Positions 3,100 to 12,558 of a DNA stretch of 44,618 nt are shown piece by piece. The translations under genes and the position numbers were made by a program. The DNA is from an uncultured Pseudomonadota bacterium (GTDB lineage: Bacteria > Pseudomonadota > Gammaproteobacteria > Burkholderiales > Burkholderiaceae): assembly GCA_946480245.1 (NCBI GenBank), contig CAMLIZ010000015.1, forward strand, positions 1 through 44,618. The letters run 5' to 3'. The notes below the pieces were generated by a model that saw nothing but the letters and a program-made list of their open reading frames with translations, was not told the DNA's origin and made no database searches. Numbering within the stretch: the first letter of the stretch is position 1; the number at the start of each line of letters is the position of its first letter.

Positions 3100-3393
3100 G
3101 TGCAAGCCTGCGAAGACGCGCTACGCCGCACCGAGCAGCGCGCCCTGGTGCTGCAGCTCGAACGCCTGATGGGCTACCCGATCGTGCGCAGGCAGGTGGA
3201 GGCCGGCAAGTTCTTTCTGCATGGCTGGCACTCCGTGATCGAGGAGGGCGAGGTACACGTGTTCGACGTGGAGCGCGGCCGCTTCGTGCCGGCCAGCGAG
3301 GCGGAGCGCAGCGGCACCGGGCCGTATCGCAGCGGGCCGGTGGAGAAGGGGATCTTCAATGAGATTGCGGAGGTGTTTGGGTCGGTGGGGTAA
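3100..3393 (+). pseudogene. Beta-carbonic anhydrase remnant (C-terminal end only)
   Basis: The 97 residues from a GTG codon match only the end of beta-class carbonic anhydrases: a helix (LVLQLERLMGYPIVRRQVEAG), then FFLHGWHSVIEEGEV and a final FDVERGRFVP, as in the C-terminus of CynT-like enzymes. The zinc-binding Cys and His-Cys residues of the active site lie upstream in the family and are absent here. The 84 bases before the start do not encode them in any recognisable way. The piece could be translated but cannot be an active carbonic anhydrase. The missing N-terminal part faces the nar operon, so a deletion between the isomerase gene and this remnant is the simplest explanation. Confidence 0.7.
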
Positions 3394-3520: not shown

Positions 3521-4150
3521 CTACCCGGAAGACCCTTGCGACGGCACTCGCGCCGGGGTACCGATTCCGCAATCAGGTTCAAGGTGAGCCGCCAGCTCGA
3601 TCCAATCGTCAACCCATGTGACTCGATCCATCGCTGGACAATCGGCGTTCCATGGATGACGAAGGAGATAGCAAGTGGTCCCGCCCAGCGCGAAAGCCTT
3701 TGCTTGCTCGTAGTCATCCTCCACCGCCGCGTCGAAATGGCGTAGATGGCTATGCTTTTCGCCGTGCTTCAGGAAGTGCAGATCAAGTGTGCCCAGGCCA
3801 ATCGAATCCAGCCACTCAACAGTGGTTCGACGAGCGATGGGGAGGCGTGCAGTCGCTAAGTGCACGCTGTGGGTATGAGCCAACTGCTGAAGTACACCTA
3901 CCGCGCCAGGTAGCGGCTCGATTCGCCAAAGAAAGCGGGGGTGCGAGAAGAGCTCATGAACTTCCTTCCATTCGACCTTGCTGATCGTGTTGCCCAAAGC
4001 GTCAGGGCACTCGCTGTAATTGAATCGTCTGATGTCCTCGTATCTGAGAGTCACGCGGCCGCCCGTGTACTCAGCGATCACGTCCCGCATGACACGATCG
4101 GTCTGTCCAATCACATTGTCGATATCCACGCAGAAGTGAAGCTTGCCCAT
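3521..4150 (-). CDS. HAD-superfamily 5'-(deoxy)nucleotidase-like protein
   Basis: A 209-residue HAD phosphatase resembling the 5'(3')-deoxyribonucleotidase (NT5C) group, which removes phosphate from nucleoside monophosphates. HAD motif I is seen as D9-I-D11-N near the N-terminus. A motif II region follows at LATARLP, a motif III lysine in FLKHGEKHSH and the acidic motif IV in VEDDYEQA, so the catalytic set looks complete. The chosen ATG has GGGGTG just upstream; an in-frame GTG lies two codons earlier. It is the last gene of the island operon, 13 bases after the GAF-like gene. With the cytidine deaminase it suggests control or depletion of pyrimidine nucleotides. The substrate is not known. 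Confidence 0.72.
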   Translation of the reverse strand: MGKLHFCVDIDNVIGQTDRVMRDVIAEYTGGRVTLRYEDIRRFNYSECPDALGNTISKVEWKEVHELFSHPRFLWRIEPLPGAVGVLQQLAHTHSVHLATARLPIARRTTVEWLDSIGLGTLDLHFLKHGEKHSHLRHFDAAVEDDYEQAKAFALGGTTCYLLRHPWNADCPAMDRVTWVDDWIELAAHLEPDCGIGTPARVPSQGSSG

Positions 4151-4163
4151 TGGCACCCCGGGG

Positions 4164-5153
4164 CTACGCCCGATATTCCTCTACAGCTATGGAAATCCGG
4201 TTCTTGTCGACCCTCCACACGTCGGCAGCAAACTTCTTCACGTCAATAGCGAGGTGATTGAAGAGCGCTTGCATTTCCTCCCCCGTCAGTGGCTCGACAA
4301 GACCATCGACATTGAGAACACCGAACGTTTGTGTCGCGTTGCTCACCGACGCGCTCAAGGGAAACCCGACAATCCAACGCAGTGCCGGATTGATCAGTTT
4401 CACCTGCGTCACTGTGAGCTGAAACGTCTCGTCCCCCTTGCCACCCGGTCCTTGAAGAAGTATCAGGTCCCACTGGGCGTCTTCTGCCTGCCGTAGAGCG
4501 CCAAACGCCTTCTCCAGCGTGAAGACGCGACCCGTCAGTCCCTCGTTTGGCCTGAATCGAATGCGGCGCTCGTCTTCGTCCGTCATGCCATGGTGCAAGC
4601 TCACGGGAATGTGCATGCCGCAGACTTCTCCTTGGAGGGCGCTTTGCGAGTCAGGTAGGAATACGTTCACCCGAAGATTGTTGGCGTCGATTGCGGCCGG
4701 CTGACTCTGCCTGGCTCGCAAGAGAGCCTCGTACTTTCCCTGCGCGAGCGACCGAATGCTGTGCAGCGCATCGGAAAGCTCCTGCAAGGGGCCCGGTGGC
4801 ACCGGAAGCTTGACGGTCACTCGCGACCAGTCAGCAAGCGGCTTGGCTGCCGCCGCACTCGGTCCTGTGATCGCATGCCCTTGCGGACGAACTAGGTACA
4901 TGCCGATTGCTGCCAAGACCATGGCGGCGAGGAGCACAATGACACCGGCCGCGGAGTTGCCCATGTAGATGACATAGCCGCCGCCCAACAGGCCCAATCC
5001 GGCGACCACTACAAAGACCATTTGTAGTATCGCGACATGCGGTTGAGGAGCGAGACCAAGCGCGGTGGTCTGAGTCCGTTCACCGGCCTGGATCAACTTG
5101 CCGGCGATATCGGATCCGGTGGGCTTTCGAGCCGCATGCCTATTTGGTGTCAT
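4164..5153 (-). CDS. Membrane protein with two TM helices and a GAF-like domain
   Basis: A 329-residue protein with a polar N-terminus, two membrane helices at about residues 40-63 and 68-88, a linker with a helical stretch (about 120-150), and a GAF-like ligand-binding domain at about 155-315. The GAF-like features are LRVNVFLP, FRPNEGLTGRVF and, near the end, IVGFPL followed by FGVLNVDG. No enzymatic output domain is attached. The ATG is preceded by GAGGGGGG; the TGA of the deaminase gene overlaps that region, giving a 14-base gap. It may sense a small molecule, perhaps a nucleotide, or act at the membrane as the effector of the island. Function is not established; the domain call is by eye. 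Confidence 0.6.
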   Translation of the reverse strand: MTPNRHAARKPTGSDIAGKLIQAGERTQTTALGLAPQPHVAILQMVFVVVAGLGLLGGGYVIYMGNSAAGVIVLLAAMVLAAIGMYLVRPQGHAITGPSAAAAKPLADWSRVTVKLPVPPGPLQELSDALHSIRSLAQGKYEALLRARQSQPAAIDANNLRVNVFLPDSQSALQGEVCGMHIPVSLHHGMTDEDERRIRFRPNEGLTGRVFTLEKAFGALRQAEDAQWDLILLQGPGGKGDETFQLTVTQVKLINPALRWIVGFPLSASVSNATQTFGVLNVDGLVEPLTGEEMQALFNHLAIDVKKFAADVWRVDKNRISIAVEEYRA

Positions 5154-5167
5154 TGGATTGACCCCCC

Positions 5168-5578
5168 TCAATTTGAATTCAGAGCGTCACTGCCAAACGA
5201 ACACGGCAGCAGGTCAGACAAGCGGTTGCGCAGAATTGAATCTCCGTCGCACACACTAACAACGAGCGCATCAACGCCAAACTCTGCGATTACCTGCCGA
5301 CAGGCCCCGCACGGCGCAGAGGGAGCTTCAGTCGGCGTGTAGATCACGAGTGCCTCGATCGTCTTCTCGCCGTCCGCGACCATCTGAAAGATCGCGTTCC
5401 GCTCAGCGCAGATGGTCAAGCCGTAAGAAGCGTTCTCAACGTTGCAGCCCTGGTAGACGTTCCCCGAAGGCGTCACCAACGCGGCTCCTACCGGAAAATG
5501 GCTGTAGGGAGCGTATGCGGCCTCGGATACGCGTTTAGCGCGAAGTACCAACTCCTGCAAAGACCTTTCATTGGCCAT
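5168..5578 (-). CDS. Cytidine deaminase
   Basis: A 136-residue zinc hydrolase that deaminates cytidine or deoxycytidine to uridine or deoxyuridine, of the usual short tetrameric (CDD) type. The active site is complete: C57-A-E59 in TICAERNA, and C90 and C93 in APCGACRQV. The substrate-binding region (SHFPVGAALVTPSGNVYQGC) is also typical. The ATG is preceded by TTGGAG, the last unit of a triple 7-base tandem repeat. In most bacteria cdd sits with nucleoside salvage genes; here it lies between a nuclease and a GAF-like membrane protein in a low-G+C operon. That suggests a specialised copy rather than the household enzyme. Enzyme class is certain; the role in defence is inference. Confidence 0.9.
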   Translation of the reverse strand: MANERSLQELVLRAKRVSEAAYAPYSHFPVGAALVTPSGNVYQGCNVENASYGLTICAERNAIFQMVADGEKTIEALVIYTPTEAPSAPCGACRQVIAEFGVDALVVSVCDGDSILRNRLSDLLPCSFGSDALNSN

Positions 5579-5584
5579 TTGATT

Positions 5585-5605
5585 CTCCAACCTCCAACCT
5601 CCAAG
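5585..5605 (-). repeat. Triple 7-base tandem repeat carrying ribosome-site-like units
   Basis: Three head-to-tail units of CTCCAAC/G on the plus strand read as GTTGGAG-type units on the coding (minus) strand, ending 6 bases before the ATG of the cytidine deaminase gene. Each unit contains a GGAG core. The repeat fills much of the 59-base gap after the NurA gene. Change in unit number by slippage could alter the number or spacing of ribosome sites; this is an inference. Confidence 0.6.
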
Positions 5606-5637
5606 ATCCTGGACGTTCTGCGGACACCTGACTTCAG

Positions 5638-7020
5638 TCAGCGCCCCTTCTTGTCCCCACCAAGCCCACTGCGTACCAGTAGATCGAGCACCTTGCCACC
5701 AGGCACGAGGCTGATGGACGCGTGTCGATGGGCCAGCGCCACCGGCACAAGTGCGTTGTCGTAGAGATCCATCTCGAAGTGACGAATCAGGTCGCAGGCT
5801 CGCCCGATGAGTGACCCATAGCGGTCGAATTCGACCTTCGCCTCAGCGAATGCCTTACCACCGCCGCCGAAGGCCTTGTCCTCGAACGGGTACGGAATCG
5901 CGAAGTTGAAGATGCGCCCGCGTTCAGTCTTGAAGAGGAAGTCCTGCCCGTAGTAGGTTTCGTTGCCGAAGTTGGCGGCCGGCGAGTCGGCGCCCGTGAT
6001 GTACTGGTTGCGATAGTCGTCGTCGATCACGCGAAGCACTCCGGCCGGAAGAAAGCGCTCCAGCAGCAACGCGTGATCCATGACACCGCCGGACTTTTGC
6101 AGACCCAGAACCAGCATCGGCTGCAATCCCATCCGCGCAAGGCGCTCGTTCACCCGGAAGATGAGCCTTTGCAGTCGCGGATGCAGCTTGGCCGGCTCGC
6201 CGAACAGCGCGAGCGGGCCGTCGAGCATGAACGCGATGTCAGCCAGCGCCTGTGGCTGCGCTTCAAAGACTTGAAGGATGAACCCTGCGAGCATGAGGTG
6301 CTCCATGGCGTTCATCATCCGCGTCATCGCGCTTGCGTTGTCGCCAAAGTCACTGATGCCTTCGTGCAGACGAAGGAAGTCAGTAGCGTAAACCTCGGCA
6401 CCGCAGGCGCCACACTGCTGGAGGAGCGTGTTGCAATCGAACGTCGGGCCAGGTGCTGCATCGCAACGTGGGCAGTCCGGAAGAGTCAGCGTGTTGTCGT
6501 TCAGCGCTACTAGCATTCGTGCCAGCACCTGGCCGGTCTGGGATTCACTGCGATCGATGCTCAGCTGATCGAATAGCGCGCGACGGAAGCCGTCCCGCAC
6601 GTTGTTGATGCCGCGGTACCGGATGTTGCTGCCCGGCATCGTGAAAGTGACGGGCGAGGCCGAGCGGTGCATTTCAGCAACCTTGAACGGATCGACAAAG
6701 CGATTGACCGGATCGACCAAGTCAGCGTACTTTTGCATGTCGATCAGCACGTGGCTGACCTTCAGAAAGCCGATCTGTGTGCTCGGCAGCTTGTCGTTGA
6801 TAGGTGCGTCGCTCTTACTTGCATCGGAGGCCACCACATAGCGCGGCAACTTCGGCGGATCACCGGCAGGCGCGCCCACGAAGCGCGATGCAAGTTCCTT
6901 AGCCTCCGCGTCGGAGGGCTCGCGCAGATACGTGCAGTTCTCGAGAAAACCCTGGACATCGGGGTTGCGGACGAAGTCAGCGTGACCACCCTTGCCCGCC
7001 GTCTCGCGGCTGTATGGCAT
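5638..7020 (-). CDS. NurA-family nuclease with internal zinc ribbon
   Basis: A 460-residue protein of the NurA nuclease family, partner of HerA-type ATPases in DNA end processing. The first metal-binding segment is seen at about residues 60-70 (RYVVASDASKSD, D66) and a second at about 263-280 (FMLDGPLALFGEPAKL, D267). A later KSGG segment and a C-terminal beta-rich end follow. Between the two acidic motifs lies a four-cysteine zinc ribbon (C183, C186, C203, C206), which is not a standard part of archaeal NurA. The start ATG shares one base with the HerA stop (TGATG), so the two are very likely co-translated. Within the island it is the most likely DNA-cutting component. Family call is good; activity and target are inferred. 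Confidence 0.8.
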   Translation of the reverse strand: MPYSRETAGKGGHADFVRNPDVQGFLENCTYLREPSDAEAKELASRFVGAPAGDPPKLPRYVVASDASKSDAPINDKLPSTQIGFLKVSHVLIDMQKYADLVDPVNRFVDPFKVAEMHRSASPVTFTMPGSNIRYRGINNVRDGFRRALFDQLSIDRSESQTGQVLARMLVALNDNTLTLPDCPRCDAAPGPTFDCNTLLQQCGACGAEVYATDFLRLHEGISDFGDNASAMTRMMNAMEHLMLAGFILQVFEAQPQALADIAFMLDGPLALFGEPAKLHPRLQRLIFRVNERLARMGLQPMLVLGLQKSGGVMDHALLLERFLPAGVLRVIDDDYRNQYITGADSPAANFGNETYYGQDFLFKTERGRIFNFAIPYPFEDKAFGGGGKAFAEAKVEFDRYGSLIGRACDLIRHFEMDLYDNALVPVALAHRHASISLVPGGKVLDLLVRSGLGGDKKGR

Positions 7021-9137
7021 CAACGTTGCCCCGCCTTCGTCACTGCCGCCCGCGGAGCGCTGGCAGCTAGGCCAAGCGCCTGCATCTCGGCGATGATGGC
7101 CGCCGGAGTGAACCTGTTGATCTGGGTAGGTATGACGAATGGCGCGGAAAGGGTCTTGATGCGCGCGAAGCCCACATCCTGGGCCGACTTGAGCGACGCG
7201 AGGAAGTCGCCGAAGTCGTAGAACTTGCCCAGCGTCTTGAGCTCGTCATCGTTGTTGAGGTGGGTGACGAACCAGTTCTCGGTATTTGCGAGGATGTTCG
7301 GATGCACAGACGAAGGCTCCTGCGTGGCGTAGACAAACGCAATCTTGGCCTTCGCCCCTTCCTTGGCGATACGCGGCCATGTTGCCGTCAGGTCGGTCTT
7401 CTTGCCTACCAGGTTGTGCGCCTCCTCGACATAAAGCACCACGTTCTGAGGCACCTCCCCAGCATTAAGCTTGCCCATCTGGCGCTCGAAGATCTGGCGG
7501 GCGATGCGCTCGGAGAGGACCTCGCGGATCTCGACCGGGCCGGCTGAGAGGTCGAGGATCACGATCTTGCCGGCGTCAAGGTGGCCGATGATTTCGGTGG
7601 TCACATCCCCGGCGCGACGAGCGGAGTGATACGAGCGGTACTTCTGGATGGCGCGCCAGCCGCCAAATGGCTGCTTGCGACTGGTCTCCCGCGCCAGCAT
7701 ATTCAACAACGCCTCCAGCATGGGATCAACCCAGGAATTGCCGCGAGTTGACGACTGCAAGCCGATCGTCGGTTGGTTATTTGCTGCCTGGGTCTCTTTG
7801 AGGCCCAGGTTGATCGAGCGAATTTGCTCGAACCAGCCGCATGCCTCGGGCAGCGCGACACGGTCGTCAGAAGGAGCCTGCACACCCTGCGAATTCCCTT
7901 GTTGCTGGGCATACGCGTTCATCTGGTCCAAAAGCTGCTTCGATCGTGGCAGCTCCACCCTGAAGCCGGCAGGTGCGGGGTACCCGGCGCGATGCAAGAT
8001 GCACTGGAACACGGCAACGTGACGCTCCCATCGCAAATGCTCACTGCGCTCACTGACGTCCGGCTCCTCCAGGGTGGCGCCCATGAATGCGTCCAGGTCT
8101 TGTCCACCGAAGGGCGAAGTGTCCCGTTTGTGCAGTGCCTGGATGAGATTTAGGCCTTGTGCCGGCTCCTGGTAGAAGTTCGCGCGCAGGTCTTGAAAGT
8201 TCGGCGTCTCGATGGCCCGGTATCGCACGACGCGATCGATGAACACTTCAGCGATGGAGCTGCCGTCGTCTTGATGGTTGGCGTTCGCATATTCGCCGTT
8301 GACATCAAAGATCAACTGTCCAACGCGGATGTCAGATTTCATCGCGGCCAGCGCCACGGCTGACACCGTCGTCTTCACAGTGTTCGACTTACCTGTGCGA
8401 GTCATGCCAAGCACTGCTGTACGCCGCGCCAGGAAGTCGGCTGGCTGAATCTGCACCTTCACCAACGGTTCGCTGTCGCCTCTATGCAGGCGCGCAGTGG
8501 AGGTGTAGCGCACAGTCCCCATATCGATCGGTTTGGGCGTGTCCTTGAATCCTGCCTTGATTGCCTCGTCGCGCGCCTTGGCACGCACCTCTGGATTCAC
8601 GTGATTTACGATCAACTCGAGAGCCGTGTCCCGAGGTTTGAATGCGCGCATGCGCGACAGACTCATGAAGTTCTCGATGTCACTGCCGAGTCGCAGCTCG
8701 CCGCACTCCATGAAGAACGTGCCAAGCACGCGGCAGCGCATGCCGCCCCATTGCAGCTCGCTGGCCGTCATTGGGTCCAACCCGTCGTTCACGTCGCCAG
8801 GTAGGCGCTCGGTCTCGCGCCGTCGTTGATGGTGTTCGATCCGTGTGCGAACCATGTCGCCGTCCTGTGGCAAAGGCGCCGGGCCCAACACGCGCAGCAG
8901 TACGACCTCCTGGTCGATAGGTGACGCTGCGTCGAAACGCCCAGGGTCGAACCCCGCCGCCAACAGGAATGAGTTGTGGGGCAAACCGTTGACAGCGTGT
9001 TTGAAGGCATCGTTCGTTTGAACGAAACACTCGTCGTACTTGAGGTTGTAGACGTAGCCCACAAACGATTTCCCGACATCTCCGATTAGCCGCGTCAGCG
9101 GGTTGTCGGAGATGATCGTGCGCAAAACAGTGTCCAT
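7020..9137 (-). CDS. HerA-type hexameric ATPase/DNA translocase
   Basis: A 705-residue ATPase of the HerA/FtsK superfamily (DUF87 type). An N-terminal beta-barrel-like region of about 230 residues precedes the Walker A motif GMTRTGKSN at about 244-252. Further motifs are LIFDVNGEYAN near 276-285 and the Walker B motif VVLYVEEAHN at about 566-575. Such proteins form hexameric rings that pump DNA into the nuclease NurA. The ATG has GGGAGG five bases upstream and starts 30 bases after the methyltransferase stop. Its end overlaps the NurA start by one base. Known bacterial defence systems use HerA with SIR2 or DUF4297 partners; pairing with a methyltransferase and NurA here points to a related role. 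Confidence 0.85.
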   Translation of the reverse strand: MDTVLRTIISDNPLTRLIGDVGKSFVGYVYNLKYDECFVQTNDAFKHAVNGLPHNSFLLAAGFDPGRFDAASPIDQEVVLLRVLGPAPLPQDGDMVRTRIEHHQRRRETERLPGDVNDGLDPMTASELQWGGMRCRVLGTFFMECGELRLGSDIENFMSLSRMRAFKPRDTALELIVNHVNPEVRAKARDEAIKAGFKDTPKPIDMGTVRYTSTARLHRGDSEPLVKVQIQPADFLARRTAVLGMTRTGKSNTVKTTVSAVALAAMKSDIRVGQLIFDVNGEYANANHQDDGSSIAEVFIDRVVRYRAIETPNFQDLRANFYQEPAQGLNLIQALHKRDTSPFGGQDLDAFMGATLEEPDVSERSEHLRWERHVAVFQCILHRAGYPAPAGFRVELPRSKQLLDQMNAYAQQQGNSQGVQAPSDDRVALPEACGWFEQIRSINLGLKETQAANNQPTIGLQSSTRGNSWVDPMLEALLNMLARETSRKQPFGGWRAIQKYRSYHSARRAGDVTTEIIGHLDAGKIVILDLSAGPVEIREVLSERIARQIFERQMGKLNAGEVPQNVVLYVEEAHNLVGKKTDLTATWPRIAKEGAKAKIAFVYATQEPSSVHPNILANTENWFVTHLNNDDELKTLGKFYDFGDFLASLKSAQDVGFARIKTLSAPFVIPTQINRFTPAAIIAEMQALGLAASAPRAAVTKAGQR

Positions 9138-9167
9138 TGTTCCTCCCAATTCTTGGCATCAAGCGCG

Positions 9168-10115
9168 TTACACAGAGGCCAGAAACTGCGTCGAAGCAGT
9201 GCGTGAGGCCGTGCGTTTCTTGGGCAACTGAGTGCCCCTGGTCAGCTTCGGTGGCGCCGGCAGCTTCAGGTTTGCGTAGAACATCACCTCATTGGCCATC
9301 GGCCGCGCGAGATGGGTCGAGTATTGGAGCGAGAAGTTTGACCGCGTCATTTCGCTGTACAGGCCCCGGATCTCGGGGACATCATCGTAGGTAATCAGCA
9401 GGGGGTGAACCGTGACCTGAGCACAGCGCGCGATGGCCTCGTGGTCTGCGTGCTGGTAGTGATTGCGATATAGCTGGCTGCCCTTCACGTAGTACGGCGG
9501 ATCCAGGTAGATCAGCGTCTTTTCGGGGAAGCCGGGACTGCAGTCGATAAGCAGGTCTAACGCATCTATGCCGAGCACGGTGATGCGGTCCCGCACGGCG
9601 CCAATGGCGCGCACCCGCGCAATCAAATCGTCGGGCTTGTAGCGGGCGTCGAGCTTGTATGCGCCAGCCTGTTCTTTGCCTCCGATGACGCCACCGGCGA
9701 GAATGCCGGAGCGGCTGGTTCGGTTGAGGAAGAATGCAGCGAAACCGAGCTCGAGCTGCGAATGCCTTTCTGGGTCGGCAACCATCGCCTGAAAGCGCGA
9801 TCGCGACTCCATGGTGACCGGAGTCTCGCGGATCATGCCGGCGAATGCCACGGATTCGCGAACGACAGATTGCCAGAAGGCGTAGATCAGGGGGTCGGCA
9901 TCGTTGATTACGATGTGCTCGACGTAGCCTTGCAGCAGTAAATAGAGTGCCGCACCGGCGCCCCCAGCGTATGGCTCGACATACCAGCCGCCCTTCAGGT
10001 CGTTGTTCTCGATGACGCTGGCCAGCCATGGCCCCAGACGCCCTTTCCCACCGGGATAGCGAAGCGGGCTGGCGAAGTAGCCGGAGAATCGGCTCGGCTT
10101 GCCTGGACGTCGCAT
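9168..10115 (-). CDS. D12-class (Dam-like) DNA adenine N6-methyltransferase
   Basis: A 315-residue S-adenosylmethionine-dependent enzyme that methylates adenine in DNA. Motifs follow the D12/alpha-type order: SPLRYPGGKGRLGPW at about 16-30, the cofactor-binding motif EPYAGGAGAAL at 47-57, FFLNRTSRSGI at about 128-138 and the catalytic DPPY at 205-208. The variable region in the middle should set target specificity. The chosen ATG is preceded by GAGGAAAAC; an earlier in-frame start at 10172 would run into the M48 reading frame and is less likely. As the first gene of the operon it probably marks host DNA so that the HerA-NurA pair attacks only unmarked DNA. That role is inference. Confidence 0.88.
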   Translation of the reverse strand: MRRPGKPSRFSGYFASPLRYPGGKGRLGPWLASVIENNDLKGGWYVEPYAGGAGAALYLLLQGYVEHIVINDADPLIYAFWQSVVRESVAFAGMIRETPVTMESRSRFQAMVADPERHSQLELGFAAFFLNRTSRSGILAGGVIGGKEQAGAYKLDARYKPDDLIARVRAIGAVRDRITVLGIDALDLLIDCSPGFPEKTLIYLDPPYYVKGSQLYRNHYQHADHEAIARCAQVTVHPLLITYDDVPEIRGLYSEMTRSNFSLQYSTHLARPMANEVMFYANLKLPAPPKLTRGTQLPKKRTASRTASTQFLASV

Positions 10116-10141
10116 GTGTATGTTTTCCTCAAGGGCTGTGT

Positions 10142-11327
10142 TCACGTCGGTATTCTCTGCAGGAGCGACCAAGCGGCATCGGTCATTCGACTGCAGGAGT
10201 GTCGCTCAGCATGTAGCGCTGTAAGACGGTGCAGCGCCTTGCAGAGTTGCAGGCCCAGCACGTACGTCACCACTTCCGGTCGGCGGGCAACTTGCGCTGC
10301 GCCAATCGCGCGCTCGAAGCGTTCGCGCAGCGGCGGGTGCATGTCACCCAACCCGCCCTCGGCGGCCAGCGCGTTGCGAAGCCAGCCGTGCGCTTGGTCG
10401 CTCTCGGCCTGGTGGGCCACCTCGGCCCAGCGGGCTGCAAAGTCCGGCGGCGGGGCGGGCCGGGTGGCTGCCTGGTGAAACGTGTGCTGCACATAGCGGC
10501 TGTAGTGCGCAGTGGTCAGGTTGGTGCGCTTGAGCGCCGATGCGGCCACATCAGCGCCCACCTGTTCGGCCGCTGCAGCATCGGCCCGGTACTCGTTGGC
10601 GCGTGCCAGCACGAACGAGTAGGCATTGAAGTAGGGCGCATACCAGCCCACCCTGCGTTGCAGGGCTCGGCCCGCTGCGCCTTGCCACTGCTGCGACATG
10701 CCCTGCACGGTGCCCCACCCGGCGCGCAGGCGGTAGATTAACGCGGCAAACCGGCTGTGCGAGCCCCCCAGGTGGCCGTATTCATGCGCCACCACGGCCA
10801 GCGCCTCTTGCTGGGCCAGGCTGTCGAGCAGCGGCACGCCCAGGATCAGGTGGTTGCGTGAAGGGCCCACCAGGCCAAAGGCAGGCCGCTGCAACACGGC
10901 CGCGTTCAGGTCATCGGTGACCAGCACGTGGTGAAAGCGGGGCCCGTTCATGCGGCGGCGCATGTCGTCCATGGCCTCGAACAGTGCCGGCGCGCACACG
11001 AGTCAGTGCCAGGCCTTGAGGCTTGGGAAGGCGGGTAAGCAACGCCGACATCGACGACTTCACCAGCAGCCACAGCGGCACTGCCGCCAGCACCGTCGCC
11101 TTGCCCACGCCGGCCAGCAGGCCCAGCGAGTGCAGGTCGCCAAACCACAATGCAAAAGGCAGGGCCACGAGCGCCAGCGCACTGGCGCCGGCGGTACCGA
11201 TCACCAGCGCGAGGATCAGAAAGCCCAGTGCGGCAAGCAGGGCCACATTGATCTTGTAGGCCAGCGGCGCCTCGCGGCTCTTGGCTTCAAGCCGCGCCAC
11301 CATGCGTTCGAATTCGGGCAATTCCAT
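10142..11327 (-). pseudogene. M48-family metallopeptidase gene, frameshifted
   Basis: Two adjoining reading frames together make one M48-type membrane zinc peptidase. The first (from ATG 11327, after GGAGGAG) gives about 112 residues with two membrane helices and ends in sense at LPKPQGLALTR near 10995. The second continues at once with CAPALFEAMDDMRRRM and carries the zinc motif HEYGH (about 10774-10786) and the domain that follows. The two frames meet at about 10990-11000, where one extra base (or two missing) would explain the shift; the spot is GTGTGCGCGCC. Either the gene is broken or the read has an error there. The last 25 residues next to the island look unlike typical M48 ends and may be replaced sequence. 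Confidence 0.72.
10157..10199. repeat. Pair of 9-base direct repeats upstream of the island operon
   Basis: CTGCAGGAG occurs at 10157-10165 and again at 10191-10199, 34 bases apart from start to start. Both copies lie about 40-85 bases upstream of the methyltransferase start, inside the tail of the M48 frame. They could be operator half-sites for the island operon or the trace of a duplication at the island edge. The match is short, so chance is not excluded. Confidence 0.35.
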
Positions 11328-11343
11328 GGATGCGGTCTCCTCC

Positions 11344-12228
11344 TCATGGCGGCGCCTGCACTGCGCCGGCTAGTTTCTTGAACAGCTTCTTCCGGCACCG
11401 CGGAAAGTTCACGCATCCCCAAAACGCAGTGCCGTCCTTGCCCGCCGTGCGCTCCACCATCTTCACGCCGCAGCTCACGCACGTGGGCCGCCAGTACTCG
11501 CCCTCCAGCGCCACCTGCAGCAGCGCCTGCTGCTGCTCGGGCGTGCGGGTGTCGATCAACTCCAGCAGCCGCCTCACGTCCAGCAGGTGCACTCCGTTGT
11601 CGCGTGCAAAGGCCTGCGCGTCGTCGCTGAAGGTGGAGGTGGTGGCGAACTGGCCGCGCTTCACGTTGTGCGCGGCCATCACGCCGCGCAGCTCGCGGAT
11701 CTTGTCCACGCCCACCTGCCTGCCTTGCCAGTGCTTGCATTGCACCAGGCTCGCGGGGCGGCCGGGCTGGTGGCGGCTGTAGAGCCAGATGTCCACGCCG
11801 CCGTCGGCGCCGTGCGATTGCGCCTGGGTCACAAAGCCGGCTTGCTGGAAGAGCGCTTCCACCACCGCTTCGAAGCGGCGCCACTCGATGACGTGGAACA
11901 CGGCCTTGCTCCAGGCGGTGGGCCGTGCGGGCGGTGAGGTGGTCTCGCGTGGCGCAGGCTGCGCCGGCGGCCTGGCGCCGCGGTGCATGCGCGGCTCGGG
12001 CATGGCGGTGCCTTCAAGGGGCTGGCGCCGGTGCCACCACAGCAGCGCACCGCCAATGGCCAGCAGCACCAGGCCCACGGGCACCATGCCGCCCAGCGCC
12101 TTGCCAAGCGGCGAGCCGCGCAGCAGCAGCGGCGCCATGGCCAAGCCCGCGCCCAGCAGCATCAGCTGCAGTGCCTTCTCCTGCGTGCGACGCAGCGCAC
12201 GCGTCTGCCGCTTGCTGGGCCGTGCCAA
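11344..12228 (-). CDS. Membrane-anchored Mrr-type endonuclease with topoisomerase zinc finger
   Basis: A 294-residue protein with two membrane helices (about 22-37 and 48-66), a Pro-rich linker, an Mrr-like restriction endonuclease domain (about 108-225) and a C-terminal topoisomerase-type zinc finger (C250, C253, C272, C278). The nuclease core is clear: HGADGGVDI with D146, then LVQCKHW with the Q163-C-K165 triad. Proteins of this build are widespread and often labelled restriction endonuclease, but their membrane anchor makes a true restriction role uncertain. I chose a TTG start at 12228 after GGAGGGAG because the protein then begins with a typical charged stretch. Another TTG lies at 12267 and an ATG at 12162. 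The M48 gene follows 16 bases later, probably in one operon. Confidence 0.78.
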   Translation of the reverse strand: MARPSKRQTRALRRTQEKALQLMLLGAGLAMAPLLLRGSPLGKALGGMVPVGLVLLAIGGALLWWHRRQPLEGTAMPEPRMHRGARPPAQPAPRETTSPPARPTAWSKAVFHVIEWRRFEAVVEALFQQAGFVTQAQSHGADGGVDIWLYSRHQPGRPASLVQCKHWQGRQVGVDKIRELRGVMAAHNVKRGQFATTSTFSDDAQAFARDNGVHLLDVRRLLELIDTRTPEQQQALLQVALEGEYWRPTCVSCGVKMVERTAGKDGTAFWGCVNFPRCRKKLFKKLAGAVQAPP

Positions 12229-12558
12229 GGTCTGCCGTCTCCCTCCGAGGTGACGTGGGCGCGGCAACGTCGTGTGGTGTGGTGTGGGCCCGCGCTTGGC
12301 CGAGCAGCGTAGCGGCCCAGGCGCCGCGTGGCGAGTGGCGTATTCACGTTGACGCTAACCCTTGAGCAGCAGTGCGTGAACGGCGCTGGCGGATTCGCAT
12401 GCGCGGCAAAACCACGCGCGCCTCAGGGCGCATCCGATCGGCACCGGCCTTCGTATAGGTCACGGACGGCCGGCATCCGAAGCGGTGGCGGGCGTCGAGA
12501 CCGCCCGGGCTTGGCTCGCTGCGCCCGGGCTTTGCTGAACCGCCAAGGAGACACACGC
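12229..12558. promoter_or_regulatory. Divergent intergenic region
   Basis: About 330 bases between the Mrr-like gene (leftward) and the DUF4331 gene (rightward) hold no gene I can support. Promoters for both directions should lie here. A pair CATCCG (12431-12436) and CGTATA (12452-12457), 15 bases apart, has the spacing of an ECF-type promoter and would face the DUF4331 gene, which fits the ECF sigma factor encoded downstream. This is a weak, by-eye candidate. AAGGAG at 12545-12550 is the ribosome site of the DUF4331 gene. Confidence 0.3.

Follow-up and report, generated by a model that had tools for sequence, protein, structure and literature searches.

The six minus-strand open reading frames at positions 3521-10172 of the window (the whole 44,618-nucleotide stretch analysed) are probably best explained as a horizontally acquired defence island with two modules: a methylation-guided HerA-NurA restriction core, and an independent nucleotide cassette encoding a deaminase, a GAF-domain protein, and a HAD-family protein. 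Chance does not account for the gene set, since homologues exist for every protein and the methyltransferase-HerA-NurA arrangement is found repeatedly.

Layout, composition and flanks of the island

The genes run in one direction with tight spacing (Table 1). Counted from the ATG starts on the translations, the intergenic gaps are 30, -1, 59, 14, and 13 nucleotides, exactly as described in the initial annotation, which had been made from the sequence and its open reading frames without database searches. The protein identities proposed there were also confirmed. Four proteins were matched above the Pfam cut-off (D12 DNA methyltransferase, HerA central domain, cytidine deaminase, and NT5C-type HAD), and the NurA-like and GAF-like proteins, for which no Pfam match was found, have predicted structures that match the NurA/TdpB and GAF folds, respectively. 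Catalytic motifs were found in the five enzymes.

Table 1. Genes of the island, with positions in the window
Product	ORF	Strand	ATG start
D12-class DNA adenine methyltransferase, PADLOC PD-Lambda-5_B family	9168..10172	-	10115
HerA-type DNA-translocating ATPase, TdpA-like	7020..9149	-	9137
NurA/TdpB-like nuclease	5638..7023	-	7020
Cytidine deaminase, tetrameric Cdd type	5168..5590	-	5578
Membrane-anchored GAF-domain protein, two predicted N-terminal hydrophobic helices	4164..5171	-	5153
HAD-family NT5C-type 5'(3')-deoxyribonucleotidase-like protein	3521..4156	-	4150

The G+C content, calculated in 1-kb bins, is lowest at 4-10 kb (0.59-0.61), reaches 0.63 at 3-4 kb, and is 0.66-0.76 everywhere else. 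GC3 values of 0.64-0.67 were obtained for the cassette and 0.74-0.76 for the core; eight flanking genes span 0.71-0.94, and the value of 0.71, as low as that of the core, belongs to one small ORF. No empty insertion site was found (of 11 genomes with a match to the Mrr-like gene, 6 were compared, and none has a further flanking gene in common with the window), and acquisition by insertion at this position is therefore suggested by composition. No repeat pair bracketing the island was found, and the promoter-like and terminator-like counts were at chance level (1 versus 1.8, and 6 versus 6.3, respectively).

The island is flanked on one side by nitrate-reductase genes, a PpiC-type isomerase, and a carbonic-anhydrase-like fragment, and on the other side by an M48 peptidase and an Mrr-like endonuclease gene. 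The fragment, at the island edge (3100-3393, plus strand), matches, below cut-off, no more than the C-terminal part of a carbonic-anhydrase profile, and is perhaps a gene that was cut by the island insertion. The Mrr-like gene (11344-12267, minus strand) lies near the methyltransferase gene and codes for an Mrr-like endonuclease domain; it also matches, below cut-off, a zinc ribbon of the topoisomerase type. Its position beside a PD-Lambda-5_B-type methyltransferase is noteworthy, because Mrr-type enzymes can attack methylated DNA.

The methyltransferase-HerA-NurA core

The methyltransferase was matched by PF02086 (3.7e-11) and by the PADLOC PD-Lambda-5_B model PDLC04018 (6.1e-103), and contains the motifs DPPY and YVEPYAGGAG. 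HerA was matched by PF01935 (1.5e-11) and carries the Walker A motif GMTRTGKS; the pattern used for Walker B gave no match in HerA, where the sequence reads YVEEAH. Its best PDB sequence match was TdpA (8wet_A, 2e-22), and the next, a different protein, scored 4e-11. HerA was also matched by PADLOC HerA models, and it scored 61 and 45 bits against the NCBIfam antiphage HerA models, which have cut-offs of 800 and 850. The best fold match of the predicted NurA structure was chain G of TdpAB, which we take to be TdpB, a remote match with 12% identity. The NurA-like protein contains the motifs DAS, DGPL, and HRHAS, and an insert rich in cysteines that resembles a zinc ribbon.

Self DNA is protected in the Tdp system by phosphorothioation through TdpC, whereas in the six genes of the window DNA modification is represented by the D12 methyltransferase alone. 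A HerA-type ATPase and a NurA-like nuclease are common to Tdp (TdpAB nuclease complex; PDB 8wet, 8wfd) and the window.

Sixteen HerA-NurA loci were examined (L001-L005, L011-L016, L042-L044, L063, and L064). A DNA methyltransferase was found within ~2 kb at 12 of the 15 assessable loci, so that methyltransferase and nuclease are recurrently encoded together, as in restriction-modification systems. The enzymes belong to three subfamilies: PD-Lambda-5_B-type D12 (L002, L011, L013, L014, and L015 by PADLOC; L001 and L016 by similarity), Dam-type D12 (L043 and L044), and N6_N4 (L003, L005, and L042). That this position is taken by different methyltransferases suggests that they mark self DNA. L013 and L016, in which the sequence starts at NurA and HerA is not in view, are near-copies, and counting them once gives 11 of 14 loci. 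L012 stands outside the assessable 15, as its contig ends just upstream of HerA; it has a D12 methyltransferase ~2 kb downstream, among phage genes. No methyltransferase was found at L004 by search, or at L063 and L064 by annotation only. These three loci, on cyanobacterial plasmids, consist of a small HTH regulator-HerA-NurA set with no listed methyltransferase adjoining.

The closest whole core is that of L001, with proteins that are 80, 90, and 84% identical to those of the window. In a Vibrio phage record (PQ189353; L011, 1309-3502), HerA is represented by two overlapping ORFs beside an integrase, and genes noted as Shedu and Gabija are ~7-8 kb away. In a Deferribacter megaplasmid (L005, 5141-8939), HerA is interrupted by an IS200/IS605 transposase and a TnpB gene. 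A Schlafen AlbA_2 protein is encoded directly before the methyltransferase-HerA-NurA genes of a virus-like contig (L015, 6097-7038).

A total of 684 NurA homologues (E up to 0.001) were obtained among 7998 scored candidates. The best 120 of these 684 are 66-100% identical to the window protein, and match sources include Klebsiella grimontii, Pseudomonas psychrophila, Luteibacter, and Pontibacter. Two genome samples were centred on Paraburkholderia adhaesiva (G002), which carries the core. NurA relatives turned up in 4 of the 369 genomes sampled from its class (G002 and three remote ones) and, by profile search, in 1 of the 398 sampled from its phylum (G002 alone). In a plasmid collection, HerA matches (E limit 1e-40) and NurA matches (1e-5) came from the same five records, which hold remote relatives (NurA 23-29% identical). 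Core carriers include archaeal and Deferribacter plasmids and phage-like contigs, and the core is also present in 2 Vibrio phage records and 5 virus-like contigs. A DNA-level search of E. coli genomes, with the window HerA-NurA DNA and L013:1-3000 as queries, found no core relative. This patchy distribution speaks against a housekeeping role.

It is very improbable that HerA-NurA serves in repair by resecting DNA ends, as its counterparts in archaea and Deinococcus do, with an incidental methyltransferase beside it. Adjacent HerA and NurA genes and the NurA fold are common to those systems and the window, and NurA and HerA-NurA of known repair systems rank directly after TdpAB in the fold search. 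The window is, however, set apart by its methyltransferase linkage, which recurs at other loci, by patchy presence with plasmid and phage carriage, and because both proteins find their closest match in TdpAB.

The methyltransferase also links the core to the PD-Lambda-5 system. The B gene (methyltransferase family) is common to both, but in PD-Lambda-5 it lies next to an A gene, whereas in the window it lies next to HerA-NurA; no PD-Lambda-5_A match was found at E 0.1 among the six island proteins and two flanking ones. The PD-Lambda-5_B family (E up to 1e-40) was found in 13 of the 398 phylum-sample genomes, G002 included, and in none of 14 control genomes. A PD-Lambda-5_A match lies within ~1 kb in 9 of the 13 carriers (L002, L030-L035, L037, and L038), where the calls at L031 and L038 are partial matches on the opposite strand and that at L035 was made by phmmer only. 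As for the remaining carriers, L036 has an AAA ATPase neighbour, L039 is at a contig end, and L040 and L041 had neither type of neighbour in the phmmer scan. Among the 13 carriers, HerA-NurA is present in L002 only, where PD-Lambda-5 A and B both adjoin it. At this Paraburkholderia adhaesiva locus (5210-11374), the A and B genes are divergent from HerA-NurA, with transposase genes nearby and, by reading of translations, lipA/lipB-like genes. For PD-Lambda-5, Vassallo et al. 2022 (PMC9519451) worked with a host from which an mrr-containing region had been deleted, and they state that a predicted methylase is present in only one of their DNase-like systems.

A methyltransferase tree of 18 rows was built (window, L001, L002, L011, L013-L015, L030-L038, L040, and L041), leaving out the near-copy L016, the truncated L039, and the other methyltransferase subfamilies. 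The HerA-NurA-linked rows need 3 changes on this tree; a single change was obtained in 0% of 200 bootstrap trees, and 22 of 500 shuffles were as low as 3. The strongly supported branches do not require the HerA-NurA linkage to have arisen more than once. The tree is compatible with, but not proof of, partner exchange by these methyltransferases. If the reading of the core given below is right, PD-Lambda-5_B methyltransferases would work with more than one type of effector.

The deaminase-GAF-HAD cassette

The deaminase scored 138.5 bits against TIGR01354 (cut-off 113.65), the model for the ordinary tetrameric Cdd enzyme, and only 16.5 bits against the antiphage_deaminase model NF041025 (cut-off 400). 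PDB cytidine deaminases were matched down to 1e-33, and the motifs CAE and PCxxC are present. The HAD protein was matched by PF06941 (1.3e-7) and contains the motifs DxD and EDD; its family profile matches 3bwv, a putative 5'(3')-deoxyribonucleotidase (8.4e-6), and residues D11, D13, T102, K134, E146, and D147 are invariant across the 20 rows of the alignment. A hydrophobic stretch at the N terminus of the GAF protein is split into two helices in the predicted model.

Relatives of the cassette proteins were collected by a search that finds only proteins sharing short exact words. It returned 21 GAF proteins including the window's own (20 non-self) among 7998 scored candidates, and 157 HAD proteins including the window's own (156 non-self) among 401. 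Ten of the 20 non-self GAF homologues are on contigs of identical length to those of HAD homologues, with overlapping sources, compared with a mean of 0.17 and a maximum of 1 in 102 shifted controls. The comparison used 21 GAF, 119 HAD, and 120 NurA values, window included, taken for the latter two from the best 120 of 157 HAD and the best 120 of 684 NurA matches. GAF and NurA shared no identical contig size beyond the window's own among the 120 listed NurA matches, and HAD and NurA shared one (4038) among the matches listed, a coincidence that involves different sources and lies in the range of chance (0.46 expected). The identical lengths provide indirect evidence of GAF-HAD linkage; the metagenome contigs behind the pairs include lengths of 13827, 8393, 18576, 42677, 7273, and 6708. 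At least five deaminase-HAD fusion proteins, three of which were rescanned, were found among the best 120 of the 157 HAD matches; in these five, the deaminase half is 46-63% and the HAD half 48-55% identical to the window's proteins. Such natural fusions argue that both enzymes act in one pathway.

Deaminase, GAF, and HAD genes were found at none of the 14 scanned HerA-NurA loci (all those examined but L063 and L064), some of whose contigs end soon after NurA. The proposal that the six genes form one system is therefore not supported. It is unlikely that modification, DNA degradation, and nucleotide removal act jointly in a single six-gene system gated by the GAF protein. The tight one-strand spacing and the catalytic motifs of the five enzymes are in keeping with such integration, and a nucleotidase and a deaminase could plausibly process the nucleotides freed by the neighbouring nuclease. 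However, besides the absence of the cassette from the scanned loci, which at L001 extends to the lack of a deaminase match in the 0.7 kb of contig after NurA, the GAF contigs match those of HAD and not those of the listed NurA proteins in length, and GC3 differs between the modules. On these sequence comparisons, deaminase-GAF-HAD is a separate rare cassette, apart from the core. With its natural fusions, it would seem to be a unit that converts nucleotides in two steps and carries a sensor in the membrane.

No PADLOC 2.0.0 model matched the deaminase, GAF, or HAD protein better than E 0.03, and none matched five cassette homologues or fusions at E 0.1. In viral contigs, GAF and HAD searches gave pattern matches and no confirmed relative. 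HAD was not found in plasmids and phages, nor GAF in plasmids; HAD was found in 0 of 398 and 0 of 130 genomes, in runs without a positive control that make this absence weak. One possibility, which we hold to be real if somewhat doubtful, is that the cassette is a non-defence operon for pyrimidine salvage or nucleotide cleaning that landed by chance beside the restriction module. An ordinary Cdd-type deaminase, as the score above the tetrameric cut-off indicates, could serve salvage, the HAD protein resembles deoxyribonucleotidases, and the lack of PADLOC matches points the same way. The small number of GAF and HAD relatives would, however, be odd for housekeeping proteins, within the reach of a search based on shared short exact words, and the composition of the island also speaks against a salvage role.

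Proposed mechanism and relation to known systems

In the two-module reading, the PD-Lambda-5_B-type methyltransferase would place N6-methyladenine on host DNA, and the HerA ring and NurA would load on unmarked incoming DNA, pump it, and cut it. Specificity could reside in the HerA-NurA complex, sensing the mark during translocation. The core would then be the base-methylation counterpart of the phosphorothioate-protected TdpAB nuclease. It most likely restricts DNA that lacks host adenine methylation, a reading suggested by the folds, the motifs, and the TdpAB precedent; the methyltransferase may nevertheless provide an orphan mark that is not read by HerA-NurA. This part of the mechanism, a self-marking methyltransferase with HerA-NurA attack, had been put forward in the initial annotation and is supported by analogy, because three methyltransferase subfamilies are linked to HerA-NurA, plasmids and phages carry the core, and TdpAB is the closest match; its extension to all six genes is not.

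In the cassette, HAD would dephosphorylate deoxycytidylate, and the deaminase would then turn the nucleoside into deoxyuridine (dCMP -> dC -> dU). The membrane GAF protein is a likely sensor or membrane anchor that would control HAD and the deaminase; we infer that GAF gating and nucleotide depletion, both proposed earlier, may occur. A layered form of immunity, in which HerA-NurA degrades unmarked phage DNA and the GAF sensor then unleashes HAD and the deaminase to convert freed or pooled dCMP to deoxyuridine, appears quite unlikely. If it operated, it would deprive phages of cytosine nucleotides, among them the dCMP from which some make the modified cytosines that evade restriction.

In HerA-SIR2 and HerA-DUF4297 defence, a HerA ring is paired with an effector enzyme. 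The window is alike in this respect and differs in that the partner is a NurA-like nuclease, joined by a methyltransferase; no Pfam match to SIR2 or DUF4297 was found in the six genes. Deamination of cytosine nucleotides as a possible weapon recalls the anti-phage dCTP deaminase, but the window enzyme is of the ordinary Cdd type, far below the cut-off of the curated model. To our knowledge, the anti-phage dCTP deaminase system has no HAD or 2TM-GAF partner.

No description of a methyltransferase-HerA-NurA system or a deaminase-GAF-HAD cassette was found among titles and abstract openings, with subscription journals mostly uncovered. Early comparative genomics of HerA reportedly may mention methyltransferase neighbours. 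Related thinking, on defence systems with varied modifications that capture HerA/FtsK pumps, is present in the accessible part of PMC10853773, where this gene set is not described and NurA does not occur.

The core would thus be a methyltransferase-marked relative of the known HerA-NurA/TdpAB machines, with an uncharacterised cassette attached. If this is true, HerA-NurA would be a general restriction engine that accepts different self-marks, extending beyond repair or phosphorothioate-gated nucleases. The three methyltransferase subfamilies found beside HerA-NurA make the idea of a general engine testable, with one module and swapped methyltransferases.
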